From positions 68,143 through 104,463 of the forward strand of contig JAHKAY010000029.1 of NCBI GenBank assembly GCA_018825785.1: 36,321 bases of DNA, in the 5' to 3' direction. Both the position numbers and the translations under genes were made by a program. Shown here piece by piece: positions 2,105 to 31,037 of the stretch. The stretch is from Chloroflexota bacterium. GTDB taxonomy: Bacteria; Chloroflexota; Dehalococcoidia; JACVQG01; JAHKAY01. The notes beneath the pieces are model-generated. The model was not told the origin of the DNA. It did not search any database and saw only the letters and a list, made by a program, of their open reading frames with translations. How positions within the stretch are numbered: the first letter of the stretch is position 1; every line of letters starts with the position of its first letter.

Positions 2105-2915
2105 TATCCAGGAATCTGATCACTGCAACCATATCGGCGTTGAAAACGAAACCTCGCGTGTCCTCGGAGGTTCGGAACCCTTCCTGCTTCGCAAAGGTGC
2201 GCATGTATTCCGGCAAGTTGCTCGACATTCCAAACAGCAGACGAGCATGCTGGTCTGGTAGTCCTTCCTCGGCGTCCGGAAACTCAATGGGAGCCGCCTT
2301 TTGTGACGAAATGTGCAAGTTGAACAGCAGAGCATTGCCGTCTGTACTGGAAAGCGCCCTCAAGGACCCGGCAGGGATTGAAGGGTCGCCGTCGGTCGCT
2401 TCGCCGTCGGTGATGTTGAGGAGTATAGGGGGGAAGCAGTCTGGATGCTGATTCAGCCATCCTTCAGTGATCGAATGCGCACGCGTTAGTGCCTGGCACA
2501 TCGGAGTGGCCCCATTGGCAACGGCGTCAAACCATACCGGGAACCTCACCTTCTGGTCTACGAGGCCACCCGCTCCATCCTCAACCTTCTTTGTTCGTTC
2601 CTCGACCCGCGCTGGCGAACTGGCTATCTCGCTTACGGGGACCAATTCTTTCCCAGATAAGGCGCCAGCAAAAGCAGGACCGATGCGTGCCCCGTAGCCT
2701 ATCACTCCGACCCAGTAATAATCTCGGACCCCTTCAGCTTTGGCACACTTGATGACGAGGTTCTGCAGAAGGTGATTGATGACGACCGCGACGCCATCCG
2801 CCTTCCGCTTACCTGACTCACCGACCCCGAATGGGTCGGCCATTGACCCAGACTGGTCGACCAAAAAGAGGAAGCACGAAGGATTCGCGCGGCTGATTTC
2901 AGCTGTGTAACTCAT
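2076..2915 (-). CDS. TerY-like von Willebrand factor A domain protein
   Basis: A 279-aa vWA protein. The MIDAS metal site is complete: D20-Q-S22-G-S24 near the N-terminus, TPMCQAL in the middle and ITDGEATDGD downstream. TerY-like proteins are cytosolic metal-binding scaffolds found with PP2C phosphatases and kinases in stress-response (Ter) systems. I place the start at ATG 2915 (MSYTAE), preceded by GGGGAGGGAAC, rather than the longer frame from 2966. Its 3' end overlaps the PP2C gene. No terC/terD-type tellurite genes are visible in the window, so this is a triad without the classical Ter genes. The last 40 residues carry no recognised domain. Confidence 0.87.
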   Translation of the reverse strand: MSYTAEISRANPSCFLFLVDQSGSMADPFGVGESGKRKADGVAVVINHLLQNLVIKCAKAEGVRDYYWVGVIGYGARIGPAFAGALSGKELVPVSEIASSPARVEERTKKVEDGAGGLVDQKVRFPVWFDAVANGATPMCQALTRAHSITEGWLNQHPDCFPPILLNITDGEATDGDPSIPAGSLRALSSTDGNALLFNLHISSQKAAPIEFPDAEEGLPDQHARLLFGMSSNLPEYMRTFAKQEGFRTSEDTRGFVFNADMVAVIRFLDIGTRARELR

Positions 2916-2962
2916 GTTCCCTCCCCTATGAACTTGTTCGAGATCAAGCTTGCCACAACATG

Positions 2963-3154
2963 TCACGGCTGTAAAGGCAATGGCCCGTCATCCCACTCGG
3001 CCAGGACATAATCCCATTGGCACTCAGGTACGAAAGTGACTTCAGAGGGAAGGTGAAAGCGTCTCGGTCTCAGCGCAACGGGAGGAGGTGTGCCGCCGAA
3101 CTTGGCCCCCCCATGTACTTGAATCTTGAGAGGAAACCGGCCTCTTGACTCCAC
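2963..3154 (-). CDS. Candidate small ORF between YhaN-like and vWA genes
   Basis: A 63-aa frame with GTG start 3154 that begins 3 nt after the upstream ATPase stop and ends 47 nt before the vWA start, filling the gap in the same direction. A GGAAGGG sequence lies upstream. The C-terminal half reads like real protein (acidic and aromatic, with CQWDYVLAEWDDG), while the N-terminal half is Gly/Pro/Arg rich. I recognise no family. The case rests on position and co-direction only, and it may be non-coding. Confidence 0.35.
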   Translation of the reverse strand: MESRGRFPLKIQVHGGAKFGGTPPPVALRPRRFHLPSEVTFVPECQWDYVLAEWDDGPLPLQP

Positions 3155-3157
3155 TTC

Positions 3158-5605
3158 TCAAGTCCCTTCCTTGTGGCCCAACCGCCTCTTGCCGGGCGCG
3201 GTGACTGAACCATCTGCCGCCATGATGAACGCCCTGCAGGTAGAATGCCCAGCTAGGGAGCCGCTGAACCACCTCATGATGTCAGGGTCCTTAGAAAGCA
3301 AGAATATCTGGGTTTCCTTTGAGAGGCGTGCGAGGAAATCCAAAGCTCTTGTCAGCCGAGGCTGGTCAAAGTTCACGAAGGGGTCATCCAAGAATAGGGG
3401 CACCCTTTCGTGTAGATTGCTCATCAGCCTAGCCAGTTCTATCCTCAGGAAGAAATACATCTGTTCTGTTGTGCCAAAGCTGAGTTTATCGGCGGTTATT
3501 ATCTGCCCTGTCTCTGGCTCCTTTACGGCGACATTGAACTCGGCCGGGTCCACATACACAGTGGAATAGCGGCCGCCCGTCAAAGCAGCCACTTGCGCGC
3601 CGACCGCCTCGGCCAGTCTTGGTGCAAAATCGCGGTGAAGTTCGCCAGCAGCATCCTCGATCGCTGTTATTGCAGCTTCCAGAGATCGCCGAAGTAGCAG
3701 AAGCCTTCCAACTTCCCTCTGGTATCTGGCGATGTCTTCTTCTATCTCTGCACCTTCTCGGTGTGCTGACAAGCCCGCCTTGACCTTCTCGTCTCTTATC
3801 GCGATTTCGCGTTCCAGACTCGCCTTCCTATCGCCAAGATTGGTGCATTCCCCCCTTAGCGAATCCAAGGTCTTGTCCAGACGCAGCCCTGCCAACTCAG
3901 GGTTGGTGGCCAGAAGAGCATCCTTTTGTTGCTGCAAGTTCCTGTGCCTGCCTGCAAGCTCATGCGGGCTTTCCGTTCCCTGCACTTGGCTCTTTCCTTT
4001 TTCGGCTGCCTGGAAGTCGTCGTTCGCATGGTCATAGCGAGTCTTTCCTTCGTACGCTTCGTCAAACATGGCTGAGGCCTTATCAAAGTCTCTCTCTTGA
4101 ATGTGTGCCCTCTGGAAGATGCCGAGCAGTCTTTCGCGCTCTGCATCCACCGCGGATTGGCCTTCGCCCACTTGCTTATTGAGAGAATTTAGCTCCGCAA
4201 GAGAACTGCCCAATTGAAAATAGCGAAGCCTCTTCTTTTCAAGCTCCTCCAGACTTTCAACTTCGTACCTCTTGAGCAATGCCTCCAGCCTAGTAGTGGC
4301 AAGAGTCTGCTCAGTCTGCAAGCTGTCAGAAGCTTGCCGAACGCCTTTCTTCTCCTGCTCGAGAATCCTCTTGCTCCTGGCTCGCTGCCACAACAACAAC
4401 GGGATGCCGATAGGCGGAATCAAAATGGCGAGGGCAAGAACCCAAGTCTTCATTCTTGCGCGGCGGGTCTCTAGCTTCTCAAGAAGGCGTCGCTTTTCCT
4501 CAATACTCTCAGCCAATCGAATCAGTTCCTGTCGGATATCCTGAAGGTCACGGTATTCGGTATCCAACAGTTGTCCTATGGTCCCACTCAGCTTCTGGTG
4601 TTCGCTGATTGCCCCCACCTGAGCTAAGCTGGTTTCCTTCTCGGCTAGCGCCCTCCGCAGCTCGGAAACACGCCCAGCAGCATCGCTCAATGACTGTCTT
4701 CCCCTGATCGCCTGTTCGTGAAGACCCAATGGAAAATCGGAATACTTGCTGAGCCCGTCCCGTTTTGCTTTAGCTTCGTCCATACGCTGGTCTAGCTGGC
4801 CAATCGTTCGAAGGCGATCCTCAACATTCTCGATCTCTCTGCATATGACTGAGAAGCTAGCCCTTTGCAGGTCTCGTTTGCATTCGTTGAGCTGCCCGGA
4901 AAGCTCTTCTCTCTCGGCGGCTGCGTTCTGGACAGCCTCTTTCGCCTCCCTGTACTTTCTCAACTCCTCTTCGTACTCGCTCACCCGCCTCTTGGATACG
5001 GCGAATGGGGTCGTGCGGCTCCTATCGGTACCCACCCTCTGCCTGACGGCGCTGTCCAGGCTTTGGATGGCTCGTGCTGCCGAGATATCCCGTTTGCCTG
5101 TGTCGGCAAGCCCTACTATTGTGTCTCCGAGGGCACCCGTCGTGTCGAGTTCTGCAATAGCGCCCTGGCTGATGAAAGCGCTGGATCGGAATACGGGGTG
5201 AGACATTCCAAGCTGCTGCCTGGCAACCGGAACATTGCCGTGGCGGCCGACACCAAATTCGCTTGTGACATTCTGCCCGGTAGCGAGGTTGATAACCTTA
5301 GTTGGTACGTCGTCAGTCCCAAAGTCCCTTTCGATACGAAAGCACGTGCCGTCATCCAGGCAATACTCCAGGGTTCCCCCATAGCGTGCTGCGTGCCACG
5401 GGCGATATATCTCACGTCGTTCATTTTCTGCCTTAGTTGCCCGATCACCTTGGTAGAAGCCATAGAGCAACGTTAAGACGGCCTCTTGCAGCGTAGACTT
5501 GCCAGCCTCATTCTCACCAAAGAAGAGATTGACAGCAGGAGCAAGCCCCAAGTCCAGGTCACACAACTTGCCGAACCCCGCTATCTCCAGCCGCCGGATC
5601 TTCAT
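3158..5605 (-). CDS. YhaN/SbcC-like SMC-type ATPase with internal membrane segment
   Basis: An 815-aa protein. The N-terminal ATPase half has the P-loop GENEAGKST (residues 30-38); a long coiled coil spans about 205-385, a hydrophobic helix about 387-406, and a second coiled coil about 410-650. The C-terminal half carries the signature LSFGTTEQ (709-716), Walker B VPLFLDDPF (735-743) and a D-loop. There is no CxxC zinc hook as in SbcC/Rad50; the membrane segment sits where the coil would fold back, as in YhaN-type proteins. ATG 5605 overlaps the upstream nuclease stop (ATGA), indicating coupled translation and a two-subunit nuclease-ATPase. The longer frame from 5692 lies inside the nuclease gene and is rejected. 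Predicted role: ATP-gated DNA-end processing, possibly at the membrane. Confidence 0.85.
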   Translation of the reverse strand: MKIRRLEIAGFGKLCDLDLGLAPAVNLFFGENEAGKSTLQEAVLTLLYGFYQGDRATKAENERREIYRPWHAARYGGTLEYCLDDGTCFRIERDFGTDDVPTKVINLATGQNVTSEFGVGRHGNVPVARQQLGMSHPVFRSSAFISQGAIAELDTTGALGDTIVGLADTGKRDISAARAIQSLDSAVRQRVGTDRSRTTPFAVSKRRVSEYEEELRKYREAKEAVQNAAAEREELSGQLNECKRDLQRASFSVICREIENVEDRLRTIGQLDQRMDEAKAKRDGLSKYSDFPLGLHEQAIRGRQSLSDAAGRVSELRRALAEKETSLAQVGAISEHQKLSGTIGQLLDTEYRDLQDIRQELIRLAESIEEKRRLLEKLETRRARMKTWVLALAILIPPIGIPLLLWQRARSKRILEQEKKGVRQASDSLQTEQTLATTRLEALLKRYEVESLEELEKKRLRYFQLGSSLAELNSLNKQVGEGQSAVDAERERLLGIFQRAHIQERDFDKASAMFDEAYEGKTRYDHANDDFQAAEKGKSQVQGTESPHELAGRHRNLQQQKDALLATNPELAGLRLDKTLDSLRGECTNLGDRKASLEREIAIRDEKVKAGLSAHREGAEIEEDIARYQREVGRLLLLRRSLEAAITAIEDAAGELHRDFAPRLAEAVGAQVAALTGGRYSTVYVDPAEFNVAVKEPETGQIITADKLSFGTTEQMYFFLRIELARLMSNLHERVPLFLDDPFVNFDQPRLTRALDFLARLSKETQIFLLSKDPDIMRWFSGSLAGHSTCRAFIMAADGSVTAPGKRRLGHKEGT

Positions 5606-6735
5606 ACGGGTGCTATTTCCCTTCCGCCCAAGGCTTGCAGTCCGTACAGGAGCGCTCGCTCGATGATGCGCTTCTCTTCCTCCGTGCCACACAGCTCCAA
5701 ACGCTTGAGCATCTTCCTCAAGAAGAGCCCTCTAACTGTGGATTCCTGCTTGATAGCCTCAATGTCGTAGCCAGGGTAGGTGATATCGTCGACATCCATG
5801 AATCGGAATGACTCGTGGCAGTCGCGAAGGATCGACTCCAAGTCTAGTTCGACATCGGGATGCAGCGCGCCCTTGAGCACGACGCGCACCAGGGACTTCC
5901 CAAGCTGGCTCTCGCCTCCCATTCTTCGGATCTCTTCCTTAATATCTTCTATTGAGAGAGCTTCGGTTAGGTCGACTTCTATCCTCCGATAGTCAACAGC
6001 ATTGACCTGTATCAATCGGACGGATGCCCCACTGTCTTCTATCTCTGTGAGCAACACGTAGTGCGGGCCTTCCTCGTCAAACCCAAGCGGTTCAGGACTC
6101 CCAGGATAGCAGTAGAGCGCCTTGTCCTCCGGCAATAGTGACGCCCTGTGGTAATGCCCCAAGAGAGCAAGATTGACACCCGTGGTAGCCATCTGATCTG
6201 GCGTGAAGGGGCAATGGGCTTCTTTGCCAATCTGCACGCAGCTTGTGTCTGACGCGTGGAGGAGCAAGAGATTGAATCCTCCGCCTTGAACCTTGAAGCG
6301 TTCGAGCAACCTCCCTCGAAAGGATGGCGAATCGTGCGCTGCGCCCCAGAGAGTAATGTCAGGAGCCAGCTTGTGCGGAGACAATTCGGGAGAGGGGAAA
6401 ATGAACACATTGGGAGGCCATTCCGCTTGCCGATAGGGACAGCCCGGCAGCAGTGGATCGTGGTTCCCTGGCGCGATGACGACCGGAAGGGCACCAAGGG
6501 TCCCAAACTGTTGTCTGAGGAAGTTCAACGTATCGGGGCTAACCCTGTCGTTCTCGTAGAGGTCTCCCGCGATGGTGATAGCGTCGACACGCAGTTCTAC
6601 TGCCGTGCTGAGAATGCGCTTCAGGGCGTCGCGCAACTCTGCCCGGCGCTGCCTTGCCACGCTCGGGGACATGCCAGTGCGGGCAAAGGAGGCATCCAAG
6701 TGCAAATCGGCGAAATGCAATATCCGATATGCCAT
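5602..6735 (-). CDS. YhaO/SbcD-like calcineurin-fold DNA nuclease
   Basis: A 377-aa metallophosphoesterase with the full Mre11/SbcD motif set: D10-x-H12 (FADLHLD), GDLYEND (D58), GNHD (91-93), LLLHASD and LGHYH. These residues bind two metal ions, usually Mn, for exonuclease and endonuclease activity. The C-terminal third resembles the YhaO capping and partner-binding region. It overlaps the downstream YhaN-like ATPase gene by 4 bp, which is the usual pairing. A TATACT-like -10 lies about 40 nt upstream of ATG 6735 without a convincing -35. In this context it is probably the effector nuclease regulated by the phospho-signalling triad further downstream; that last point is inference. Confidence 0.88.
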   Translation of the reverse strand: MAYRILHFADLHLDASFARTGMSPSVARQRRAELRDALKRILSTAVELRVDAITIAGDLYENDRVSPDTLNFLRQQFGTLGALPVVIAPGNHDPLLPGCPYRQAEWPPNVFIFPSPELSPHKLAPDITLWGAAHDSPSFRGRLLERFKVQGGGFNLLLLHASDTSCVQIGKEAHCPFTPDQMATTGVNLALLGHYHRASLLPEDKALYCYPGSPEPLGFDEEGPHYVLLTEIEDSGASVRLIQVNAVDYRRIEVDLTEALSIEDIKEEIRRMGGESQLGKSLVRVVLKGALHPDVELDLESILRDCHESFRFMDVDDITYPGYDIEAIKQESTVRGLFLRKMLKRLELCGTEEEKRIIERALLYGLQALGGREIAPV

Positions 6736-6950
6736 GCTACGCTGCTCTCCCTCGTTCCCTCAGGGCGTCACCAGTATACTTCAATCGGACGCGGTGTCAT
6801 AGGCATGGGCACAATCCCTCATCAACCTTGGCCGTTCCAAAGAGCGAACGAACGCGAGAATTGTCCCTGTGGCCTATGCGGGACAGGGCAACGGCCTGCG
6901 TGGAGGCGTCGAGGGCCTCCGACCGTCCGATGCTCAAGGCACCCGCGCTC

Positions 6951-7775
6951 CTACGTTGGACGGGAAGTCCTGACGCAGCGGTCGAGACGGCGATGAAGAT
7001 ACGACGCAATAACAAGTAGATCCAAGGCGTCTTGCTCTGAAATGGGCCACCTAATCTTTGGGGCGTGCGCCGTGACGTTGCGAAAGACTCCAAACATGCC
7101 CTTCATCAGCTGCATCAGGCCGCTGTGCTCGCTGCGTTCGTTCTCAGTCCGAAGACTGTTGAATGCCAGAAGCGGCAGCCCTTGCTGCCCAATACCAAAG
7201 GCACGGTCGACCAGCTCGGAGCCGTCTCCGTCCACCTCGGCCATCTCCCTTATTCTGTCGGCCACGCTCTTCGTCGCCTCAAAAACCGCGTGAAAGTAGT
7301 TCTCCTGAAGTAGTTCCGGCTGGCAGAAGCGCAACACGCCAAGATGTACTCCTCGCCGGGCCAACTCTGAGCGAAGGCGCCCGGCAGCTTCTTCGGCTTC
7401 CGTCAGCGTATGGGCTGGTTGGGCACGCTGGCGTAATTTCCCGTCTTCACCCAAGGAGTAGCCACAGAAGGCGAGGATGGTATTGAGGGCACCGCGCCGC
7501 GACTCGAAAACGGGGCGGTTGGCGGTGTAACGCACGGGATTCATTGCCTCCTGTACAAATGCGCCCACGATGTTGCCCGAGTGAGTCTGCTCTTGAAGCT
7601 CGGCTAGAGCCTGAAAAAGGCGGTGTCGCTTGGTCATGGCAGGCATTGGGTCAGGAATGCCCAAGTGCGCCAAGAGGCTGCCTATCTCGCTACCTGTGAG
7701 CCCGGCCTGCGTGTCAGCGAGAACACCGCAGATACTCTCAAGTTCCGGCTGCCCAAACTCAGGAAGTGCAGGCAC
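6951..7775 (-). CDS. Ymh-family (TIGR02391-like) protein with HEPN-type motif
   Basis: A 274-aa protein whose C-terminal half matches what I recall of the Ymh hypothetical family: GLPLLAFNSLRTENERSE, then GLMQLMKGMFGVFRNVTAH. The segment R232-N-V-T-A-H237 fits the R-x4-6-H motif of HEPN ribonucleases and toxins, which are frequent in abortive-infection and toxin-antitoxin systems. The N-terminal ~130 residues look helical and are unassigned. The start is GTG 7775 with only a weak AGGG upstream; an internal ATG at codon 44 would be a shorter alternative. It lies 215 bp upstream of the nuclease/ATPase pair on the same strand. RNase activity is inferred from the motif only. Confidence 0.7.
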   Translation of the reverse strand: MPALPEFGQPELESICGVLADTQAGLTGSEIGSLLAHLGIPDPMPAMTKRHRLFQALAELQEQTHSGNIVGAFVQEAMNPVRYTANRPVFESRRGALNTILAFCGYSLGEDGKLRQRAQPAHTLTEAEEAAGRLRSELARRGVHLGVLRFCQPELLQENYFHAVFEATKSVADRIREMAEVDGDGSELVDRAFGIGQQGLPLLAFNSLRTENERSEHSGLMQLMKGMFGVFRNVTAHAPKIRWPISEQDALDLLVIASYLHRRLDRCVRTSRPT

Positions 7776-12011: not shown

Positions 12012-12387
12012 CAGTGTGGATTATAGCAGAGACAGCTCAAGCAGCCTTCCGCTGAATGATGGCTTCGGATGAACAGAATTGTGGTGTGTTGGGCTGCGGA
12101 GGTGGCGGACGATTCCTCTCGTCACCAGCCCGCGCGACAATACGCCCTTTTGTTGTATCGCCCCTTGGTTCAAGCCTGTAGGCATGGGCCAGCCTTCAGA
12201 CCACTCTGGTCTACCTCGAGATTCTTACCCGACCCCTGGGGGATATCGAAAGAGTCCTGCAAAGGCCGCATCGTAAGCTGGCTGGGACTGATTTTGGCCG
12301 ATTGCACTCGCTTTGACAGCCAGGAACCAGAGGTCTAGCATTGTTTCATCAGGTCTTTGGAGTCGGCGAAGGAAGGAGGGTAGAACA
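12012..12387. other. Divergent intergenic region
   Basis: 376 bp between the leftward membrane protease gene and the rightward SDR gene. Apart from the SDR promoter candidate and its AAGGAGGG ribosome-binding site, I see no gene or repeat here. Confidence 0.6.
12313..12341 (+). promoter_or_regulatory. Candidate sigma-70 promoter for SDR gene 1
   Basis: TTGACA (12313-12318), a 17-nt spacer and TAGCAT (12336-12341), about 45 nt before ATG 12388. The -35 is a perfect consensus; the -10 matches 4 of 6. Confidence 0.5.
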
Positions 12388-13182
12388 ATGCTGCAAGTTT
12401 CAGGGGCGGTTGCTGTCATTACGGGAGGGTCTGGTGGTATCGGTGAAAGTCTGGCTAGATGCTGGGTCAAGAATGGAGGCAAAGTTGTCTTGGCTGCGAG
12501 GAACCTTGAAAAGCTTCGTCGAGTGGAAGAAGAGGTAGCGGAAATGGGAGGAGAAGTGGTGGTCACAGCCTGTGATGTGACCAGAGAAGAGGACAACCAT
12601 GCCCTCGCCCGTCTCGCCGTGGAGAAATTCGGGGCCATCAATCTCATCGTTCCTGCCGCTGGTATTATCAACGATAGCTTCCTGGTTTCTATTGACCAGG
12701 ATACAGGCAAGGCGGCAGAGAAGATGTCGCTGGAACAGTTCCAGTCAGTGCTGGATGTCAACCTCACTGGTGTTTTCCTGACTGTGAGGGCGTGTGTCGT
12801 ACAAATGATTAACCTCGGCTGCAGGGGACTAATATGTCTGATTTCTTCGACCGGTTCTTTGGGAACGGCTGGCCAGCTCAACTATTCATCAAGTAAAGCA
12901 GCCATGTCAGTGATGCCCGATGTACTTACAGCCGAGTTTTTCAGAAGAAATATTGCCGATAGAATTCGGTGTGTGGCGGTAGCGCCGGGCTATGTCGCCA
13001 CACCCATGGTGAAGGCGGTCGTTCAGAAGGTTCTCGATAGAATTCTAGAGCAAGTGCCTATCAAGCGCCTGATAGAGCCCGACGAGGTGGCTACTCTGAT
13101 AATTGACCTTTACCGCAACGAGGCCTGCGCCGGGGAAGTGTTTTATATTCATGGAGGATTACGCCTAGGCTCGAGAGGTTAG
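12388..13182 (+). CDS. phaB: Short-chain dehydrogenase, acetoacetyl-CoA reductase-like (copy 1)
   Basis: A 264-aa classical SDR. It has the NAD(P)-binding TGGSGGIG (12-19), CDVT, DVNLTG and the catalytic S153/S154, Y166-x3-K170. The family reduces 3-oxoacyl thioesters; next to PHA synthase and thiolase genes the likely reaction is acetoacetyl-CoA to 3-hydroxybutyryl-CoA. ATG 12388 is chosen because AAGGAGGG lies 8 nt upstream; the longer frame to 12313 has no such site. It is the only PHA-locus gene on the plus strand and faces copy 2 (13357-14151), with 53 differences in 264 residues by hand alignment. FabG or another 3-hydroxyacyl dehydrogenase role cannot be excluded, so the symbol is tentative. 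Confidence 0.8.
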   Translation: MLQVSGAVAVITGGSGGIGESLARCWVKNGGKVVLAARNLEKLRRVEEEVAEMGGEVVVTACDVTREEDNHALARLAVEKFGAINLIVPAAGIINDSFLVSIDQDTGKAAEKMSLEQFQSVLDVNLTGVFLTVRACVVQMINLGCRGLICLISSTGSLGTAGQLNYSSSKAAMSVMPDVLTAEFFRRNIADRIRCVAVAPGYVATPMVKAVVQKVLDRILEQVPIKRLIEPDEVATLIIDLYRNEACAGEVFYIHGGLRLGSRG

Positions 13183-13356
13183 AATATTCGCCCAATGCAA
13201 AGTGGATGTTCTGGCTTCAGGGATAGTGGCATCACGAAAATGGTCCTCTGGGCGCCTCTGGGCGCCTACTGCCTCGGTCACGTCACTCTGGGCGAAGACG
13301 CACGGAAAGGTTCCAGCATCTCCCCTGGCAGCACCACGTCGCGAATGACGCCGGTC

Positions 13357-14151
13357 TTAGCCTCTCGAGCCCAGATGTAGTCCTCCATGAATATAAAACA
13401 CTTCCCCGGCGCAGGCCTCGTTGCGGTAGAGCTCGCCTATCAGAGAAGCCACCTCTTCAGGCTCTACCAGGCGCCCGATGGGCACCTGCTCCAGAATTCT
13501 ATCCAGGGCCTTCTGGTTCATGCCTTTCACCATGGATGTGGCGACATAGCCCGGCGCTACTGCCACACACCGGACTCTACCGGCAATATCTCTTCTGAAA
13601 AACTCGGCTGTGAGTACTCTGGGCATCACTGACATGGCTGCTTTACTTGATGAATAGTTGAGCTGGCCAGCCGTTCCCAAAGAACCGGTCGAAGAAATCA
13701 GACATATTAGTCCCCTGCAGCTGAGGTTAATCATCTGTTCGGCACACTCCCTCACCGTCAGGAAAGCCCCTGTGAGGTTAACATCCAGCACTGCCTGGAA
13801 CTGTTCCCGAGACATCTTCCCTTCCACCTTGCCGGTCTCCCTGTCAATGGCAAGCATGAGGCCATCTTTGATAATGCCGGCGCAAGGAACGATGAGGTTG
13901 ATGGCCCCGAATTTCTCCACGGCGAGACGGGCGAGGGCATGGTTGTCCTCTTCTCTGGTCACGTCACAGGCTGTAACTGCTACTTCCCCCCCCATTTCGC
14001 CTATGTCCTTTTCTACGCGTCGAAGCTGTTCTATGGCCATGTCAGCTAGGACAACCTTGCCTCCATTCTTGACCCAGTGCTTGGCCACAGTCTCACCAAT
14101 ACCACTACCCCCTCCGGTGATCACAGCAACCGCCCCTGAAATCTCCAGCAT
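13357..14151 (-). CDS. phaB: Short-chain dehydrogenase, acetoacetyl-CoA reductase-like (copy 2)
   Basis: A 264-aa SDR of exactly the same length as copy 1. It has TGGGSGIG near the N-terminus, DVNLTG, and catalytic Ser with Y166-x3-K170 (NYSSSK). Copy 1 is its inverted paralogue. ATG 14151 is preceded by TAGGAGGGTAGGAACG, nearly the same leader as copy 1, so the duplication includes the ribosome-binding site. It is the last gene of the leftward PHA operon, 94 bp after phaC, where a phaB would supply (R)-3-hydroxyacyl-CoA monomer for the synthase. Long nucleotide-identical tracts shared with copy 1 suggest gene conversion. The cofactor preference is not clear. Confidence 0.83.
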   Translation of the reverse strand: MLEISGAVAVITGGGSGIGETVAKHWVKNGGKVVLADMAIEQLRRVEKDIGEMGGEVAVTACDVTREEDNHALARLAVEKFGAINLIVPCAGIIKDGLMLAIDRETGKVEGKMSREQFQAVLDVNLTGAFLTVRECAEQMINLSCRGLICLISSTGSLGTAGQLNYSSSKAAMSVMPRVLTAEFFRRDIAGRVRCVAVAPGYVATSMVKGMNQKALDRILEQVPIGRLVEPEEVASLIGELYRNEACAGEVFYIHGGLHLGSRG

Positions 14152-14245: not shown

Positions 14246-15394
14246 TCATTCTGCCTGCTTCTTTGCCGCCTGCTTCTTTGGAGACCCGGCCTTCCTGGCG
14301 CCGGGGGAGACAGGCTTCTCTGGCAGTTGTGACCTTGTCGACAGCCACTCTGCTATGGCTGGCGCCAGTTGCTTCTGCGATTGAGCGCTCACATAGATTC
14401 CGATATGACCCCCGCGAAAGGAGAGAATAGACTTGTCCTGACTGGAGACTGCATCATTGAGTGGTTTGCTTGCTGACGGAGGCACAAGATGGTCCTGCTC
14501 AGCAAATATGTTAAGAAGAGGCATGGTGATTCTCTTCAGGTCCACCGTCCGAGTCCCTATCTTGAGCTGGTTCTTGATCAACAGGTTCTTCTTGTAGAGG
14601 TCGTTTACAAATTGCCTGATTGTTTCTCCCGCTTGACCGGGACTGTCGAATATCCATTTCTCCATGCGCACAAAGTTCTCCGCTGTTTCCTTGTTGTCCA
14701 GATTGTCCAACATGCCGACATATTTGTCCAGCATCAGAGAGAAGGGTCTAAGCATAAGAAAGCCGAAATTCATGAAATCCCCAGGTACGACTCCAAAGGT
14801 ATCGACCACATTGTCTATGTTCAAGGATTTGGCCCAGATATGAAGCAGGCCATCACTGGTGTCGAAGTCTATGGGGGCGACCATGACGACAAGATTCCTT
14901 ACCTTCTCGGGGTAGAGGGCTGCATATATTACAGAGAAGGTCCCGCCCTGACATACACCCAGCAGGTTGAGCTTGTCCAGCCTGCTCTGCTCCCTAATTC
15001 TATTTACAGCGTTGTTAAGGTATCCCCTGATGTAGTCTTCAAGGTTAAGGTAGCGGTCACCTGGCCCGGGGTATCCCCAGTCAATCATATAGATGTCCTG
15101 CCCATGTTGCAGAAGGCGCCTCACCAGGCTCCTGTCCTCCTGCAGGTCCATCATATATGGACGGTTTACCAGCGCGTAGTTGATGAGCAGGGGGACCGCA
15201 CAAGGCTTGTCCACCAGGGGCCTGTAGTGGAAGAGCCTCATCCTGTCCTCGGTGTAGACCAAGTCCCTGGGCGTTGTACCTGTATCCACGTTGGAGATGC
15301 TGGTCAGCAACTCCATGCTCTTCAGCAGCTTTCGATTGGTAGCGACAAGCTCACTGGCAAGCTGTTCCATGCTATCCGAGAATGGGGTTCTCAT
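14246..15394 (-). CDS. phaC: Class III polyhydroxyalkanoate synthase subunit PhaC
   Basis: A 382-aa alpha/beta hydrolase-fold synthase that polymerises (R)-3-hydroxyacyl-CoA at the surface of PHA granules. The lipase-like box is GVCQGG with nucleophile C148; the general base and acid are D301 (AEQDHLVPP) and H330 (GGHIGIYVS). These positions match the Allochromatium class III enzyme within one residue, as does the length. PYMMDLQEDRSLVRRLL and the VYMIDWGYP-like IYMIDWGYPG are typical. An odd Lys/Ala/Pro-rich tail (from about residue 367) extends past the usual end. ATG 15394 overlaps the phaE stop by 4 bp, so the two subunits are translationally coupled. Confidence 0.95.
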   Translation of the reverse strand: MRTPFSDSMEQLASELVATNRKLLKSMELLTSISNVDTGTTPRDLVYTEDRMRLFHYRPLVDKPCAVPLLINYALVNRPYMMDLQEDRSLVRRLLQHGQDIYMIDWGYPGPGDRYLNLEDYIRGYLNNAVNRIREQSRLDKLNLLGVCQGGTFSVIYAALYPEKVRNLVVMVAPIDFDTSDGLLHIWAKSLNIDNVVDTFGVVPGDFMNFGFLMLRPFSLMLDKYVGMLDNLDNKETAENFVRMEKWIFDSPGQAGETIRQFVNDLYKKNLLIKNQLKIGTRTVDLKRITMPLLNIFAEQDHLVPPSASKPLNDAVSSQDKSILSFRGGHIGIYVSAQSQKQLAPAIAEWLSTRSQLPEKPVSPGARKAGSPKKQAAKKQAE

Positions 15395-16536
15395 GGCTGC
15401 TCCTTCTTTGTTGCCCTCTCTGCTCTTTTCAGTCTGCTCTGCAGTTCAGCCACCTGCTTGGTGTTTCTCCTGACCTCTTGCTTAAGCAGGTACACGCTCT
15501 TGTACAGGTCGTTCATCTCGGTCCTGGTAGGTATCGGGAGAGCCTTAAGGTATTCCTCAATGATTTCATGGTAGCGCTTTCGGACTAGCATTATGGCGTC
15601 CACAACCTGACCGAGGAGACGGGAGAACTCGGGGGTCTGGTAGAGCTCCTTGACGGCCTCCTCGTTGGTGGTCCACCACAGCTTGTAGAATTCCCTGAAG
15701 GTCTTGGGGGCTTGCCCCTTGTCCGACATGCTGCCCAACTCCGTCATCACCTTCTGCATGGCCTCTGTGCTTACCCTGGAAAAGGCCGACCCGAAGTCCG
15801 TCGAGACGGAGAAGTAATTCACCAGGGCCTCCGCACCTTGCTGCAGCAGTCCAACGGTCTCTCGCATCGGACCCAGGGCAGGCATTCTGAGCAGCCTCCC
15901 CCAGGTCTGTTCATAGGCCGGTAGCCACCAGTTGAGGGCCTCGCCATAGGCTTGAGGGCCTTTTTGCAGGGCCTCTGCCGTCTTCTGCGGCAAGCCCTGT
16001 AACGCCGCCGTCCAGGGCTTGGAGAACTGGGATAGGGCCTCGGCGTACATCGTCATCAAATCCGCCGGCGCAGCCAGTGGCCACTTCATGGGTTCCGGGA
16101 AGGAGCCTGTGAAAAAGCCCCCCAGCGATGCGTTGTAGCCCTTCAACCAGGAGCTATAGAAGTCCTGGTACGTTTCATGCACCGTCTTCCCTTCGGGCGG
16201 TGCCCCGGAGAGGATCTTGGCCGCGTTGGCCCAGAATTCATAGAGCTTGCCGTAGACCTGGGCAGCGCCGAGGGTCTTGGCAAAGGTCTGCCCTCCAATG
16301 GCCGAGGGGGTCCCTTTCCAGTATTCCCCGAACATCTCCTGGCACATCCTTTGCCACTCATCATAGATGCGCCCCGTTGCTTCCCACCAGGGACCGGGAG
16401 ACCCTTTCGCGGCCTCATCCCCTGGAGTGGCCCTGGGGAGTGCAGACAGGGTGTCGGCCCACAAGCGCATATAGCTTCTTTGGGTCTCTAACCACGCCCC
16501 CAGGAAATCCTTTTCCCTTCCGTGCTCTGTTGTCAT
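15391..16536 (-). CDS. phaE: Class III polyhydroxyalkanoate synthase subunit PhaE
   Basis: A 381-aa helical, Trp-rich protein with no enzyme motif, of the usual PhaE size and directly upstream of phaC. The C-terminal 100 residues (TNEEAVKELYQTPEFSRLLGQ, then a region resembling the conserved IPTRTEMNDLYKSVYLLKQEVR) form the most conserved PhaE block; a coiled-coil tail follows. PhaE forms the active PhaEC complex and is required for class III synthase activity. ATG 16536 has an AGGAGGGAGAC sequence upstream. The 4-bp overlap with phaC supports stoichiometric production. Confidence 0.9.
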   Translation of the reverse strand: MTTEHGREKDFLGAWLETQRSYMRLWADTLSALPRATPGDEAAKGSPGPWWEATGRIYDEWQRMCQEMFGEYWKGTPSAIGGQTFAKTLGAAQVYGKLYEFWANAAKILSGAPPEGKTVHETYQDFYSSWLKGYNASLGGFFTGSFPEPMKWPLAAPADLMTMYAEALSQFSKPWTAALQGLPQKTAEALQKGPQAYGEALNWWLPAYEQTWGRLLRMPALGPMRETVGLLQQGAEALVNYFSVSTDFGSAFSRVSTEAMQKVMTELGSMSDKGQAPKTFREFYKLWWTTNEEAVKELYQTPEFSRLLGQVVDAIMLVRKRYHEIIEEYLKALPIPTRTEMNDLYKSVYLLKQEVRRNTKQVAELQSRLKRAERATKKEQP

Positions 16537-16669: not shown

Positions 16670-16948
16670 CTACGCCCTCTTGGACAGGTAGTCCTCTAGC
16701 TTCGCGAGATTCGCTTCAATGGTCTTCTGGAACTCATCGCTCGCCTTCTTGTAGGCAGACACCCACTCGCGGGTGACCTTGGTCCCTTCGTCATATCTTG
16801 TCTGGCCCTGAGTGAGCGCCGTCTCCAGCAGCCTTTCGCCCTGGGTCTGCAACATGGCGGCGCCGTCCATCCAGTTCCTGAAGGAATTCCTCATGAAGTT
16901 CACATATTCCAAACCGGCTTTCTCCACGCCAAATTCTAGCTTGTCCAT
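16670..16948 (-). CDS. Small phasin-like granule-associated protein
   Basis: A 92-aa amphipathic, helical, highly charged protein (MDKLEFGVEKAG...LEDYLSKRA) with no transmembrane segment. Size, composition and position between phaQ-like and phaE genes fit a phasin, which coats PHA granules. ATG 16948 is preferred because AAAGGAGG lies 9 nt upstream; the frame extends 17 codons further without a better site. Phasins diverge quickly, so assignment rests mainly on context. The segment QTQGERLLETALTQGQ resembles the coiled-coil region of phasin_2-like proteins. Confidence 0.7.
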   Translation of the reverse strand: MDKLEFGVEKAGLEYVNFMRNSFRNWMDGAAMLQTQGERLLETALTQGQTRYDEGTKVTREWVSAYKKASDEFQKTIEANLAKLEDYLSKRA

Positions 16949-17051
16949 TTTCGGTTCCTCCTTTCTTGGTTGTTTTTCCTGGGACTTCTTCTCTACCACA
17001 GTGCACCTCCTCTCGTTTGGGCTCCCTATCTGTTCTGTCTCGTTGTTTCCC

Positions 17052-17510
17052 CTATTTCGCCTCCTCCGCCTTCGCAGGGGCCGCCCTATGGGCGTCTTCT
17101 TTGCTGGCGAGTCGCTGTCCCTGGGAATAGACTTCAGTGAACCTAACTAATAGCCCCTGGTACTGCCTCAGGGCAGAAGCCCAGGTTCGCAGGAACTCCT
17201 CCCCTGCATCTGTAAGGGAATAGACTCTCTTGGCTGGGCCGGAATCCCCCGTTTCCCAGGCAGACATGATCAGCCCGGTTTTCTGCAGCCGACGCAACGT
17301 GCGATACACGGTCGTCGGCTCAAAGGAAGCCAGTCCAAACATGGTCAGGGTTTGCATCAGCTGGTAGCCATGCATGCTCCAGTTGCGCAGAACAAGCAAT
17401 ACCCAGGGCGTCAAGAAATCCCTGGGAAACTCAGGGGGCGCCCCAGAACGCGCTGGCGCACCATCCCGGTTCCCCACCCTGTCCGATTTATTCTTCTTCA
17501 TCTGAAGCAT
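17052..17510 (-). CDS. phaQ: PadR-family repressor, PhaQ-like
   Basis: A 152-aa PadR-type winged-helix regulator: FLTPWVLLVLRNWSMHGYQLMQ (helix 1-2), FEPTTVYRTLRRLQKTGLI (recognition helix) and the wing GPAKRVYSLTDAGEEFL. In Bacillus, PhaQ is a PadR-like repressor that senses PHA and controls phasin expression; here the gene sits directly upstream of the phasin-like gene and phaEC, the same logic. ATG 17510 or ATG 17501 may be used. The candidate promoter places transcription start only a few bases before the start codon, with a perfect dyad on the -10, which suggests autoregulation. The last 20 residues are Lys/Ala rich. Confidence 0.85.
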   Translation of the reverse strand: MLQMKKNKSDRVGNRDGAPARSGAPPEFPRDFLTPWVLLVLRNWSMHGYQLMQTLTMFGLASFEPTTVYRTLRRLQKTGLIMSAWETGDSGPAKRVYSLTDAGEEFLRTWASALRQYQGLLVRFTEVYSQGQRLASKEDAHRAAPAKAEEAK

Positions 17511-17698: not shown

Positions 17699-18880
17699 TC
17701 AGGCCATCTCCACAATCATGCTCACCCCTTCCCCACCCCCCACGCAGAGGGAGGCCATTCCTCGCTTCCCGCCCCGGTCCCTGAGGGCATATAGGAGGGT
17801 TACCAGCAACCGGGCCCCGGAACAGCCTATGGGGTGGCCCAGGGCAATAGCACCCCCATTTACATTCACTTTCCCCTCATCCAGTCTCAGCTCTTTGATA
17901 ACAGCCAGGGCGCCGGCGGCGAAGGCCTCGTTTATCTCATGCAGGTCAATATCCTCTTCCCTGAGCCTCGCCTTTTTCAGCACCATAGGTATGGAATTCA
18001 TGGGGCCGGCGGAGAAGATACTTGCTTCAATGCCAGCAGAGCCGTGGGCGATGACCCGGGCCATAGGCCTAATCCCCTTCTCTCTCGCCTTCTCCGCCGC
18101 CATTAGGACCAGAGCGGCGGCACCGCTGGAGATCTTCGAGGCATTTCCGGCGGTGATGGTTCCCCCCTCCTTGAAGGCGGGGGATAGCTTTGCCAGGGCC
18201 TCAAGGCTGGCCTCCCGCTGGGCTACTTCATCCTTGTCAAAAAGCTGTGGGGGCCCTTTCCGCTGGGGGATGGGGACAGGGACTATCTGTTCCCGGAACC
18301 GGCCCTCCCTGGTGGCCTGCTGGGCCCGTTGATAGGACTGGAGGGAGAAGCGGTCCTGGTCCTGGCGGGAGACGGACCACTTCTCGGCTACATTCTCGGT
18401 GAGCCGGCCCATGTGGGCACCGTGGGTCAGATCCCACAGGCCGTCATGGACCATCCCGTCCACCACCTTCCCATCGCCGAGGCGATAGCCGGAGCGAGCC
18501 TGGAGTAAGTAGTAGGGGGCCAGGGACATGTTCTCCATCCCCCCGGCCACAATGATGTCGGCATCGCCCGCTTTTATGGCATATTCGGCCAGCATGACAG
18601 CCTTCAGCCCCGAGCCGCAGACCTTGTTGACGGTGAGGGCAGTAGTGGTGTGGGGGAGTCCCGCACGGAGCATGGCCTGGCGGGCGGGGCTCTGCCCCAG
18701 GCCCGCAGGCAGCACATTCCCCAGAATCACCTCGTCCACCTGCCCCTTTTCTATACCTGCCCGCCTTATGGCCTCCTCAATAACAACGCGGCCCAGCTCC
18801 AGGGCTGAGGTATCTCTCAGGGCCCCTCCAAAGTCATCCATGGCGGTCCTCACCGCGCTGACAATGACTGTCTCCCTCAT
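17699..18880 (-). CDS. phaA: Acetyl-CoA acetyltransferase (thiolase)
   Basis: A 393-aa biosynthetic-type thiolase condensing two acetyl-CoA into acetoacetyl-CoA, the first PHA step. Catalytic residues sit at family positions: C88 (VNKVCGSG), H349 (GHPIGCSGAR) and C379 (CVGGGEG), with NEAFA in between. ATG 18880 (MRETVIV) has GAGGAGGT 7 nt upstream; the longer frame to 18916 is rejected. It is the promoter-proximal gene of the leftward PHA series, 188 bp before phaQ. Together with phaB and phaEC it gives a complete acetyl-CoA-to-PHB route. It could also serve fatty acid metabolism, but context favours phaA. Confidence 0.93.
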   Translation of the reverse strand: MRETVIVSAVRTAMDDFGGALRDTSALELGRVVIEEAIRRAGIEKGQVDEVILGNVLPAGLGQSPARQAMLRAGLPHTTTALTVNKVCGSGLKAVMLAEYAIKAGDADIIVAGGMENMSLAPYYLLQARSGYRLGDGKVVDGMVHDGLWDLTHGAHMGRLTENVAEKWSVSRQDQDRFSLQSYQRAQQATREGRFREQIVPVPIPQRKGPPQLFDKDEVAQREASLEALAKLSPAFKEGGTITAGNASKISSGAAALVLMAAEKAREKGIRPMARVIAHGSAGIEASIFSAGPMNSIPMVLKKARLREEDIDLHEINEAFAAGALAVIKELRLDEGKVNVNGGAIALGHPIGCSGARLLVTLLYALRDRGGKRGMASLCVGGGEGVSMIVEMA

Positions 18881-19888
18881 GTCCTGACCTCCTCTACTCA
18901 CTTCCGACTCCGACAATACGGGGGACAGGAACTGCTGACCGCTCTGCGCTCCGGCCTCCGCCGTTCCCCCCCCCCCCCACTTCTGGTCTCTCTCGGCTGT
19001 GGTAGATGCCCAGACCTACTGCCAGATCAGACTCCCGGCAGTAGCCCGGCCTGCTCCATCCCTATCCCGTGATGGGCCATTCTATCACAACATCCCTTTC
19101 TTCTGCTGGCAAGCTTCTGCTGCTGACAAGCTTCTGCTGGCAAGACCCCTTTCTTTGGGACTGGCCCCGGTCGCCGTCTCCCCCTCGGCGGCCTCAACTC
19201 GGGCTGCCATGCCCCTAACTGGGCGGGCAGAGGCGGCGTGGGTAGCCCCCGGGGCAGAATGCCAGGGACGGCTGCCAGAGCCCGCTGAAGGAACGCCGAA
19301 TAAGGCACTGGGATGTCTCTGGCACCGGCTGTATGTTGTGGGGCAACTGGACGAGAGACCGATGGTTGGTCCATGACCATATCTCGCCCTCTGGCCTTTG
19401 GGCCGAGCGCGTGCGTCCCCAGTGCCAGATGCGATGGCGATCGGCACTTCTCTTCAAGCAAGCGCCACTGCCCGAGGCGTGCATGGCGAAAACATGGTCT
19501 TCTCTTCTTATGACAAACGGACAGATTGTCTCGCTCGGAAGCAAGAAGGGTAGATCCAGCATCCTGCGGATCCGTTTCGCAAGATTCTCAGCCGGCTCTC
19601 ATCCTCCGCAAGTTTCAGGACCAATACGCAAGGTAAACACAGCGATTATATTAGCCTCGTATCACTTGGCTATTTCTCTGAGTAGTTCGTCTACATGCTC
19701 ACCTAAGTGTAGACATCTACATACTCACTGGCCTGTGACCCTCCCCCCAGCAACGATGCGACTCGCTAATTTAGTCCCGCTCTCCCGCTACCGCTCTATG
19801 TGGAGAAGGCTAGGCTGTATGGGGTCCTGTGTGCGGTAGGCTCACCCCTGGAAACCGCCGGAGATTGCTGAGTTTGCTCACATGCAGG
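18881..19888. other. About 1 kb gene-poor region with short repeats
   Basis: I see no convincing gene here; open frames exist in several phases but lack family features and ribosome-binding sites. It holds a run of about 14 C near 18967, a duplicated TTCTGCTGGCAAG (19101-19113 and 19132-19144), and a dyad/direct-repeat cluster at 19689-19728. It separates the PHA locus from the recombinase-bearing element and may include the unrecognised left edge of that element. Confidence 0.5.
19689..19728. repeat. Dyad plus direct repeat, possible operator cluster
   Basis: GTCTACA (19689-19695) and TGTAGAC (19708-19714) form a perfect inverted repeat. TCTACATGCTCAC recurs as TCTACATACTCAC 27 bp downstream with one mismatch. 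This looks like a regulator-binding cluster, but the nearest genes are well over 150 bp away. Confidence 0.35.
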
Positions 19889-20557
19889 TCAAGGGCCATC
19901 GGGGCACCAGCGACACCGACCAGGAATCCTATTCTGTAGGGTGAGTTCCCGAAAGCCCCGGCTGACTTTATCCGTTAGCTCGTTCAACTTCCGCCATACC
20001 CTATCTTTGTTCCTTCTGAGCCTAACCAGCTTCTCCTCTCGCGACCGAACCCATTCCGGCGAACCCTCAAAGTGGTGAGGTAGAGGTGCTATCCAGCACC
20101 AATAAAATTGCCTCAGCGTCTGGTATCTATTAAAGTCCTTCCAAACTTCCGTTCCTCCAAGGTGCTCCTTCAGGGCTAAATACACAGGGTCACTGTCAAC
20201 AGGCTGCCCAGCTCTGAGAGTTTGACCCGCATATGGCATTGCCACTTCGCCACGGCTGGTCAGGGGCACCGGCCTACTCCAATCCCTAATCCAATCATCT
20301 ATGTGGGCTATCATCTTTCGCAACTCATCTTGATGGGGGCCAACCTCTGGCTTGCCGGCAGCTTGCTCCTTGAGTTTCGGAAATCCCCCACCTCTTATTC
20401 GCTCCAGCTCATCTTTATGAACCCGCCAGGTGCTGCTATGCGTTATTCGGCTGCCCTTGATATCTCCCTGCCTGAGGTATTCGTATACCCTGTCCAGAGA
20501 CAGGTCCAGGATCTTGGCTACTTCTTCCACACTGTAGAACTCTTTCTTCACCGCCAT
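19889..20557 (-). CDS. Excisionase-like HTH protein with unknown C-terminal domain
   Basis: A 222-aa protein. The N-terminal 55 residues (FYSVEEVAKILDLSLDRVYEYL, then GDIKGSRI and WRVHKDELERI) form a MerR/excisionase-type helix-turn-helix. The remaining ~165 residues are Trp/Arg-rich and unassigned (DWIRDWSRP, EWVRSREEKLVRLRRNKDRVWRKL). ATG 20557 (MAVKKEF) is chosen over 20599 as it starts at the domain. It diverges from the AbrB-like and recombinase genes, as expected for a control or directionality protein of an integrative element. The function of the C-terminal domain is unknown. Confidence 0.65.
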   Translation of the reverse strand: MAVKKEFYSVEEVAKILDLSLDRVYEYLRQGDIKGSRITHSSTWRVHKDELERIRGGGFPKLKEQAAGKPEVGPHQDELRKMIAHIDDWIRDWSRPVPLTSRGEVAMPYAGQTLRAGQPVDSDPVYLALKEHLGGTEVWKDFNRYQTLRQFYWCWIAPLPHHFEGSPEWVRSREEKLVRLRRNKDRVWRKLNELTDKVSRGFRELTLQNRIPGRCRWCPDGP

Positions 20558-20618
20558 CGCTAACCCCAAAGATGCCTTAAGATGCCTTAATTTGAGCAAC
20601 CACAGACGTACCCTCTAT

Positions 20619-21142: not shown

Positions 21143-21307
21143 ATGGGACAGTATGTCAGGGTGGACAAACTCAAGGGAGGCAAAGTTCGGTATTATCTGG
21201 TGGAATCCCATCGGGAAGGAAAGAAGGTAGTCCAGAAGCGCCTAAAATACTTGGGGACCGAGCCCCCGGAGGGCTGGCGACCAAAGAAGGGAGAGGAGGG
21301 GAAATGA
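21143..21307 (+). CDS. 54-aa basic protein translationally coupled to recombinase
   Basis: MGQYVRVDKLKGGKVRYYLV...KRLKYLG resembles the short N-terminal beta segment seen at the start of some IS1634/IS4-type transposases (R-YY-LVES-REG-KV-QK-LKYLG), but here it is a free-standing protein of 54 residues. AGGAG precedes ATG 21143, and the stop overlaps the recombinase ATG (ATGA), so the two are translationally coupled. It lies directly after a near-consensus promoter. Likely a recombinase accessory or control protein; function unknown. Confidence 0.65.
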   Translation: MGQYVRVDKLKGGKVRYYLVESHREGKKVVQKRLKYLGTEPPEGWRPKKGEEGK

Positions 21308-22923
21308 AGATAGCAGCTGTCTGGGCAAGGGTATCCACGCAAGACCAGCGGGAGTTGTCTCTGAAGGGGCAGGTGGAAAGGTGCCGGACAAAGCTAGAGA
21401 GCCTCGGCTACCTCGTGCCGCCAGAGCGCATCCTGGCAGTAGACTGGACATCATTGGACCTTTACGCCTGCCCCCAGTTTCGGGAGCTACGACGGTGGGT
21501 GAAGGCCGGGGAGATAACAGCGCTGGGGGTGTTGGACCGGGACAGACTCAATGCCCAGGGCCTTCAGCGGCTGAACCTCCTGGCTGATTGTAAGGAGGCC
21601 GGGGTAGAACTAATCCCATACCAGGGGCCGCCGATGCTGGAAGGGCCGGAAGGACAATTGGTGGAGCTTGCCCTAGCTATCGGCAAAGAGCGCTCTGTTG
21701 AAAGGGCGCAACAGGGAGCGAGGGATGGACTGAGGGACCGGGCGAGGCTCAAGGGTCTCCCCCCAGCACCCAAGAACCCGTATGGGTACGCTTGGAATAG
21801 TACAAGGACGAAGCTACAGGCCACCTCAGAGTTGCCCAACGCCGAGTTTATTTGCCGGGCCGCGCTGGAGGGGGTGCCCATCCGTCGTATAAGTCAGGAA
21901 CTACACCGCCGGGGTACTTCCTCCCCTTCGGGCAAGACGTGGTGGCCGAGCCCCACTATCTATGGCATCCTCACCAATCCCATATACGGTGGCCGGTTTT
22001 ATGCGCTCCGCCGGGAGATGGTGCTGCCCCGTCACAGAAGGACTCAGAGCTATGGCAAGAGTAGCGGTCGACACAAACCTATCGAGGAGGCCTTCCTTCT
22101 CCCCAATATTATGGTAGAGTGCCCGCCACTGACCTGGGATGAATGGCTGGCCCTTCAGGGCCGCCTCAAGGTCAACAAGCTTCAGGCGCAACGTAACGCC
22201 AGGCGGGACTACTTGCTGCGCTCCCTCATTATCTGCGAGACCCACCGCCGCCGCTATCGGGGTTCTGTCCATTGTGGGAAATGGCGCTACCAATGCCCCA
22301 CCTGCTATGACCAGGCAGGCAGTCCCTGCCCCAGGCCCTACCTTTTTGGGCCCGAGCTAGAGGAGAAAGTCAAAGCTATATGTCGGCAGGTCCTGTCCTC
22401 TCCCGAGGTGTTAGAGCAGGAAATACGCCAGAGGGCAGGTCGGGTGGAGGCCACCTTGGAGTCTCTGCAAAACAGCCTCGCGACGCTGGACAGAAGGGGG
22501 GCCCGCAACCGGGACATGGAGGCCAACCTTCTGCTGGAACGGGCAAAGGGGAACGCCTCTCCCGAAGCGTATGAGCGCTGCCTGGCAATGCTGAAGGCGG
22601 AGCGAGTCTGGATTGCTGAGGAGCGTCAGCGCCTCCAGGCCCAACTGGACACAGCTCGGCAGGGGGAAGCTACGCTCTTCGCGTTGGCTCAGGTAAGGGA
22701 GAAGTTGGCGACCAAGCTGGATAGTGCCGCCAATGAGGACTGGCGGCTAATCTTCAGCGCCTTGGCCCTGGAGCTCCATGTTACCGAGCAGGGGAATGTT
22801 GAAGTCGCTCTGGCTTTACCTGTGGAAAAGCCCTCAATTGTATCAAGCGCCCCTTTGTCCGCCTCCGGGCCATGGCCGGGCTCCTCGGCCGCTACCGGGA
22901 GGGGGGGCTTTTTGAGGGCCTGA
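21304..22923 (+). CDS. Large serine recombinase (site-specific integrase)
   Basis: A 539-aa protein. The N-terminal resolvase domain has catalytic S11 in ARVSTQDQ, a conserved Arg-containing LDRDRLNAQG and a long E helix. A recombinase domain follows (NPYGYAWN..., ISQELHRRG, SPTIYGILTNPIYGG), then a zinc-ribbon-like region with Cys pairs (ICETH, HCGKWRYQCPTCYD) and a coiled coil near residues 370-470. This enzyme family integrates phages and mobilisable elements at att sites. ATG 21304 overlaps the 54-aa ORF. The last ~25 residues (from about KPSIVSS) are Ser/Gly/Ala-rich and are read out of frame from DUF2851 gene DNA, so the C-terminus is probably chimeric, created by integration. Confidence 0.92.
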   Translation: MKIAAVWARVSTQDQRELSLKGQVERCRTKLESLGYLVPPERILAVDWTSLDLYACPQFRELRRWVKAGEITALGVLDRDRLNAQGLQRLNLLADCKEAGVELIPYQGPPMLEGPEGQLVELALAIGKERSVERAQQGARDGLRDRARLKGLPPAPKNPYGYAWNSTRTKLQATSELPNAEFICRAALEGVPIRRISQELHRRGTSSPSGKTWWPSPTIYGILTNPIYGGRFYALRREMVLPRHRRTQSYGKSSGRHKPIEEAFLLPNIMVECPPLTWDEWLALQGRLKVNKLQAQRNARRDYLLRSLIICETHRRRYRGSVHCGKWRYQCPTCYDQAGSPCPRPYLFGPELEEKVKAICRQVLSSPEVLEQEIRQRAGRVEATLESLQNSLATLDRRGARNRDMEANLLLERAKGNASPEAYERCLAMLKAERVWIAEERQRLQAQLDTARQGEATLFALAQVREKLATKLDSAANEDWRLIFSALALELHVTEQGNVEVALALPVEKPSIVSSAPLSASGPWPGSSAATGRGGFLRA

Positions 22924-23693: not shown

Positions 23694-24455
23694 CTATCTT
23701 GCCAGGAGCAGTTTTCTGGCTATCTCCTCCACCCCCTGGCGCAAGGGTGAATCAGGGGGAAGCTCTTTCACGGGCTGGCCGCGGGCCTCCAGGTCGGCGA
23801 GGGCGGGGTCTTCGGGGAGGCGCTGCACCAGCTCCAGGCCCCCCTCCTCAATGACCTGGGATATCTCTGCCGAGATGGGCCCCTTCACCCGGTTCAGCAC
23901 CAGGGCCACCCGCCCCACGGAAGTCCTGAGTTCCCGGATAAGCTCCTTCATCTTCCGGGCGGTGTAGACCCCCTTTACCGTGGGGTCCGATACCAGGAGC
24001 AGGAGGTCTATGTCCCTGGTGGTCTGGCGGGAGAGGTGCTCCATCCCGGCCTCGCAGTCTATCACCACGTAGTCATAGTGGCTCCCCAGCCGGTCTATTA
24101 TCTGGCGGAGCATGTTGTTGGCGGCGCAGTAGCACCCCGGCCCCTCGGGCCGGCCCATGGCCAGGAGGTCTATCCCCGGGGACTCCGACAGGGCCTCCCG
24201 CACCTTCAGCTCTAGATAGTCCTGCTTGGGCAGGGAGGGGCTGAATTTTCCCCCCTTCACCAGAGTGAGCATCTCCTCCCGCGCCTGCCCCACCGTCTCC
24301 CCCAGGGAGAGGCCCAGGGCCAGGGGCAGGTTGGTGGAGGGGTCGGCATCTATGGCCAGCACCGTCCCCTTTCGGGAGAGGAGCTCAATGAGGAGGGCGG
24401 CCACGGTGGTCTTGCCCGTCCCGCCCTTTCCGGCCACGGCAATGCTCAGGGTCAT
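23694..24455 (-). CDS. cooC: CooC/AcsF-type nickel-insertion ATPase
   Basis: A 253-aa MinD/ParA-family ATPase. The deviant Walker A is GKGGTGKTT (9-17), followed by AIDADPSTNLP, the metal-binding CYC pair C108-Y-C110 in GPGCYCAANN, and VVIDCEAGMEH (Walker B region). CooC dimers use ATP to insert nickel into the C cluster of CO dehydrogenase; AcsF does the same for acetyl-CoA synthase. As acsB is present but no CODH gene, maturation of the ACS A cluster is the likelier role. It overlaps acsV by 4 bp (ATGA) and is the last gene of the leftward acs operon. Confidence 0.92.
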   Translation of the reverse strand: MTLSIAVAGKGGTGKTTVAALLIELLSRKGTVLAIDADPSTNLPLALGLSLGETVGQAREEMLTLVKGGKFSPSLPKQDYLELKVREALSESPGIDLLAMGRPEGPGCYCAANNMLRQIIDRLGSHYDYVVIDCEAGMEHLSRQTTRDIDLLLLVSDPTVKGVYTARKMKELIRELRTSVGRVALVLNRVKGPISAEISQVIEEGGLELVQRLPEDPALADLEARGQPVKELPPDSPLRQGVEEIARKLLLAR

Positions 24456-26377: not shown

Positions 26378-26425
26378 ATCGTCCTCCCTGAGGTATTCTA
26401 AGGCGCTCTCAGGTGGGCTGCTGGT

Positions 26426-27775: not shown

Positions 27776-27784
27776 TTTTCCCTC

Positions 27785-28735: not shown

Positions 28736-28794
28736 CCTTCTCCTTTCAGGCCACAAAATCTCCCCTCACCTGGCGGGCGAGGGGAGGCATTTCT

Positions 28795-31014: not shown

Positions 31015-31037
31015 CTGGTCCTCTCCTTTTTCTGGGA

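Follow-up and report, generated by a model that had tools for sequence, protein, structure and literature searches.

An inverted pair of SDR genes beside PHA synthase genes in a Dehalococcoidia genome, with signs of partial gene conversion and predicted divergence in cofactor preference

Two SDR-type genes that lie tail-to-tail (convergent) in the 36,321-nt window, the whole stretch of DNA that was analysed, are best explained as a PHA-linked reductase gene and its inverted copy, partly homogenised by gene conversion, one of NADH type and the other of NADPH type, and we consider this reading as a whole to be probable. The genes, SDR1 (12388-13182, plus strand) and SDR2 (13357-14151, minus strand), are 795 bp each, and their stop codons are separated by a spacer of 174 bp (13183-13356), in agreement with an earlier sequence-only reading of this DNA. 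They are identical at 677 of 795 nucleotides (85%), and re-alignment of the proteins returned the same 53 differing positions of 264 that had been counted before. SDR1 and SDR2 are the only strong match to each other in the whole 1.59-Mb draft genome, and a repeat search showed that their inverted repeat, with arms of 799 nt that are 85% complementary, is the sole long one in the window. An intrinsic terminator was looked for in the spacer and not found, and the spacer RNA folds no better than shuffles. Upstream of SDR1 there is a promoter-like sequence (TTGACA-17-TAGCAT, 12313-12341, plus strand), which is a consensus match only.

The identity between the two genes is concentrated in tracts. 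The longest, of 101 nt, covers positions 12818-12918 of SDR1 (plus strand) and is, as had been claimed, base for base the reverse complement of 13621-13721 in SDR2 (minus strand); it encodes the catalytic Ser153, Tyr166 and Lys170. The other long identical stretches that the sequence-only reading placed near the middle and the 3′ end do exist, a 65-nt tract (12577-12641 in SDR1, plus strand; 13898-13962 in SDR2, minus strand) and a 48-nt tract (13111-13158 and 13381-13428, on the same respective strands), but the 65-nt tract sits within the 5′ third of the gene, and it is the 101-nt tract that occupies the middle. We found silent differences in 38 of the 203 codons that specify the same degenerate residue in both copies and, with a few tract-boundary codons excluded, these were distributed as 0/67 within the tracts versus 36/133 outside (Fisher test). 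When silent sites only were shuffled, the longest identical run had P=0.012 and the three longest runs together P=0.004, and a whole-codon shuffle gave P=2e-5 for the identical run. These tests are of moderate force, with a silent-only P of about 0.01 and with tracts that were picked after being seen.

Controls from orthologs bear on the cause of this pattern. In 45 ortholog pairs, the silent difference in the tract columns was 0.325, compared to 0.328 elsewhere, and 25 of 26 ortholog pairs of similar divergence were not patchy in this way. Since the ortholog columns are equally variable and only one control pair in 26 is equally patchy, a silent-site or RNA constraint is ruled out as the cause of the tract identity. 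The patchy control pair (L063 6001-6783 and L079 6001-6783) shows silent identity over 46 and 36 codons in a row, which may reflect recombination between lineages. No orthologue of either copy was found in the class or phylum genome samples for a per-segment comparison. In summary, the earlier proposal of gene conversion from patchy identity is strengthened, as silent sites are identical too, the controls are almost all unpatchy and the tract columns vary in orthologs, and the silent-site pattern makes partial gene conversion the best explanation of the tracts. Among our search results, the literature on intragenomic gene conversion dealt mainly with eukaryote and rRNA cases.

The same data allow other explanations to be weighed. 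A single duplication followed by uneven constraint, without any conversion, would make the identical tracts simply the most conserved parts of the gene (the catalytic loop and the C terminus), and it draws on the facts that the catalytic segment, with 85% protein conservation among relatives, falls in the 101-nt tract, and that the silent-site-only shuffle leaves just the P value of 0.012 for the longest run. However, a constraint on the protein does not account for identical silent sites, which in these columns differ among orthologs as often as elsewhere, and the two copies have the same DNA in the 65-nt tract although its protein conservation against the relatives is only 60%. We therefore regard this explanation as unlikely. 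We give still less credence to an assembly artefact, whereby short-read assembly or error correction equalised the tracts, or alleles of two strains were joined as a false inverted pair. The genome is indeed a draft of 60 contigs, and short reads commonly have lengths near 101 nt, but 15% of all positions differ between the copies, SDR1 is the faster-evolving one both before and after the 101-nt tract, similarity of the flanks does not extend past the ribosome-binding site, and there are genes on the contig that fit the lineage. An assembly flip between the 101-nt cores has likewise left no sign, SDR1 being derived on both sides. Finally, a functional switch in which inversion exchanges the 3′ ends of both genes, half by half, could use the 799-nt inverted arms with their 101-nt perfect core, but it is very improbable, given that the arms are only 85% alike, that no recombinase adjoins the pair, that exchanged halves were not seen, and that large serine recombinases act at short att sites, not at long homologies. 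The earlier suggestion of an inversion hotspot thus found no backing: only one orientation of the locus is present in the assembly, no relative has the pair, and, as derived residues are in excess in SDR1 to either side of the 101-nt tract, the arrangement in the assembly shows no exchange of halves.

We also looked at the origin of the pair. Relatives at 64-76% identity come almost only from Desulfobacterota and from MAGs labelled Deltaproteobacteria, and in samples of 393 class and 400 phylum genomes, the SDR family is present in one only, the source genome. The gene was likely transferred from a Desulfobacterota-like donor. A mis-binned Desulfobacterota contig was rejected, as the AcsB encoded on the contig is 80% identical to that of a same-order genome and PhaC and PhaE have relatives at 72% and 60% identity, respectively, in another genome of the class. 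In the tree, SDR1 and SDR2 form one clade (support 100/99), which most likely places the duplication within this lineage. The Desulfobacterota SDRs (L033-L088) are like the pair in length, and some also lie beside PhaC, PhaE or phasin genes; unlike the pair, they have no second copy within the fetched loci, and multiple copies of one genome lie on different contigs. The two copies have evolved at different rates, with branch lengths of 0.30 for SDR1 versus 0.095 for SDR2 and relative-rate counts of 24-30 versus 7-13 with the eight nearest outgroups. Outside the tracts, dN/dS between SDR1 and SDR2 is 0.31, compared to 0.04-0.16 in ten ortholog pairs, a value which indicates faster protein change with both genes still constrained. 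As an observation on the class, two of its genomes, each a single contig of 1.4-1.5 Mb, have 26-27 reductive-dehalogenase matches each, in keeping with the Dehalococcoidia as the most likely class.

We also compared the functional residues of the two proteins. Both have the features of classical SDRs (PF00106 / PF13561), namely TGxxxGIG, N125, S153, Y166 and K170, and the differences between them are strongest at codons 37-42, at about 86-121 and at 206-240. The first of these segments, where strand beta-2 ends, is the cofactor-specificity loop (12496-12513 in SDR1, plus strand), which reads ARNLEK in SDR1 and DMAIEQ in SDR2. Position 37 is Asp in SDR2, the slower-evolving copy, and in 51 of 52 relatives used as outgroups (in the Desulfobacterota set, in all but one), and it is replaced by Ala37-Arg38 in SDR1. 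A structure prediction for SDR1 (mean pLDDT 89.6) gives beta-2 as residues 32-37, with residue 37 as the last. In SDRs, an acidic residue at the end of beta-2 goes with NAD(H), and a basic residue just behind it with NADP(H); the NADP-dependent 7alpha-HSDH of C. absonum has the same Ala37-Arg38, in which Arg38 is essential (PMC4785404), and the cofactor determinants of C. necator PhaB lie within residues N37-R41 (PMC8904767). SDR1 has no acidic residue ending beta-2 and has the basic Arg38 just behind, as in NADP(H)-type enzymes, although the basic residue that these have before GIG is not in its glycine motif (TGGSGGIG). One relative (L070 5986-6792), the sole copy in its genome, also has Ala37-Arg38, apparently as an independent change of the cofactor loop. 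Residues 210-215 of SDR1 depart from near-invariant residues (GMNQKA to AVVQKV). As this region is presumably the substrate lid, as is usual in SDRs, the substrate of SDR1 may be different too. Codons 1-62 have the highest silent divergence (15/41), which is significant relative to the whole remainder (23/162, P=0.003) but not relative to the other unconverted segments (23/94, P=0.21), so that a divergence peak at the cofactor loop is suggestive against the remainder only.

The gene neighbourhood, which the sequence-only reading had not mentioned, points to a role in PHA synthesis. SDR2 follows next after phaC on the same strand, and the order on the minus strand is an acetyl-CoA acetyltransferase (thiolase) that is a PhaA candidate (17699-18883), a PadR-type repressor resembling PhaQ (17052-17510; TIGR02719, just below the cut-off), a small phasin-like protein (16670-16999; assigned by position and similarity to its L122 counterpart, with no library match), PhaE (15391-16536; PF09712) and PhaC (14246-15394; TIGR01836, over the curated cut-off), the last two being the class III PHA synthase subunits, and then SDR2. 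Acetoacetyl-CoA reduction for PHA is probably the role of the pair, as judged from the thiolase, PhaE and PhaC beside it. Like PhaB and FabG-type SDRs, the pair has the SDR fold, the Asn-Ser-Tyr-Lys residues and a place beside a PHA synthase and a thiolase, and FabG of Bacillus sp. SG-1 (4nbu, NAD-bound; PMC5264612) is its best or second-best PDB sequence match. It differs from them in sharing only about 28-36% identity, in being longer after beta-4 and in lying below every curated NCBIfam cut-off, neither copy reaching that of any FabG or PhaB model (SDR1, 144.1 bits against TIGR01829, cut-off 302.1; SDR2, 106.9 bits against NF042966, cut-off 436). A similar cluster in a further member of the class (G119, L122 1025-4312) consists of a phasin, a MaoC-type hydratase (PhaJ-like), PhaE and PhaC, with no SDR beside it. 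As this cluster has the hydratase without an SDR, the SDR may offer another way to make (R)-3-hydroxyacyl-CoA. The PhaE of G119 has a tandemly repeated C-terminal coiled segment, in three copies of about 30 residues.

Together, these data suggest the following course of events. A 3-ketoacyl-CoA (acetoacetyl-CoA) reductase gene of the Desulfobacterota type, linked to PHA synthesis, would have been acquired and then duplicated beside itself in inverted orientation, the lineage-specific pair being what the tree displays. Homologous recombination between the inverted copies would have made three or more short tracts alike, the one with the catalytic Ser-Tyr-Lys among them, while the remainder diverged. 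SDR1 changed faster, with Asp37 of the cofactor loop giving way to Ala37-Arg38 and the substrate-lid segment being altered. The pha operon would then provide the cell with an NADH-preferring reductase, and a separate transcript with its NADPH-preferring partner, both of which, judging from residues and neighbourhood, would supply (R)-3-hydroxyacyl-CoA to PhaEC. Thus SDR2 and SDR1 are likely 3-ketoacyl-CoA reductases of predicted NADH type and NADPH type, respectively, with a homogenised core and diverging specificity loops.

Conversion plus divergence of gene duplicates is a known kind of process, and all its components here are of known kinds. In a model reviewed for the human red/green opsins, selection keeps a small region diverged against gene conversion (PMC3924837). 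The SDR pair resembles the opsins in being close duplicates with some tracts of low divergence and with high divergence around function-changing residues; it differs in being bacterial and inverted, and in that its silent excess near the cofactor loop is not significant relative to the other unconverted segments. That selection holds the cofactor loop apart while conversion re-homogenises the catalytic core, so that PHA monomers are supplied by way of two cofactors in an anaerobic member of the Dehalococcoidia with CODH/ACS, is a tentative idea, which we think may well not hold. If the cofactor split is real, one local duplication would let an anaerobe drain NADH or NADPH into a storage polymer, and the locus would show, in compact form and in a bacterium, divergence that persists in spite of gene conversion. 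The pair would then also be a natural comparison for the cofactor engineering of PHA reductases, having the same catalytic core and differing specificity loops.

Several other features of the window were observed. Defence-like genes lie at 1286-7775 (minus strand), with PP2C and TerY matches, a PD-Lambda-3_B / Ymh protein, and an AAA_23 ATPase and metallophosphoesterase (SbcCD-like). A large serine recombinase (Resolvase and Recombinase domains) is encoded at 21304-22923 (plus strand), 7 kb from the SDR pair, and together with a nearby HTH_17 protein (19889-20599) it is a possible remnant of an integrated element. The CODH/ACS (Wood-Ljungdahl) cluster at 23694-31502 (minus strand) encodes a ParA/NifH-like ATPase, RACo, two CdhD-type subunits and AcsB, and has a GC content of about 0.60-0.66, compared to 0.52-0.58 in most of the remaining window.
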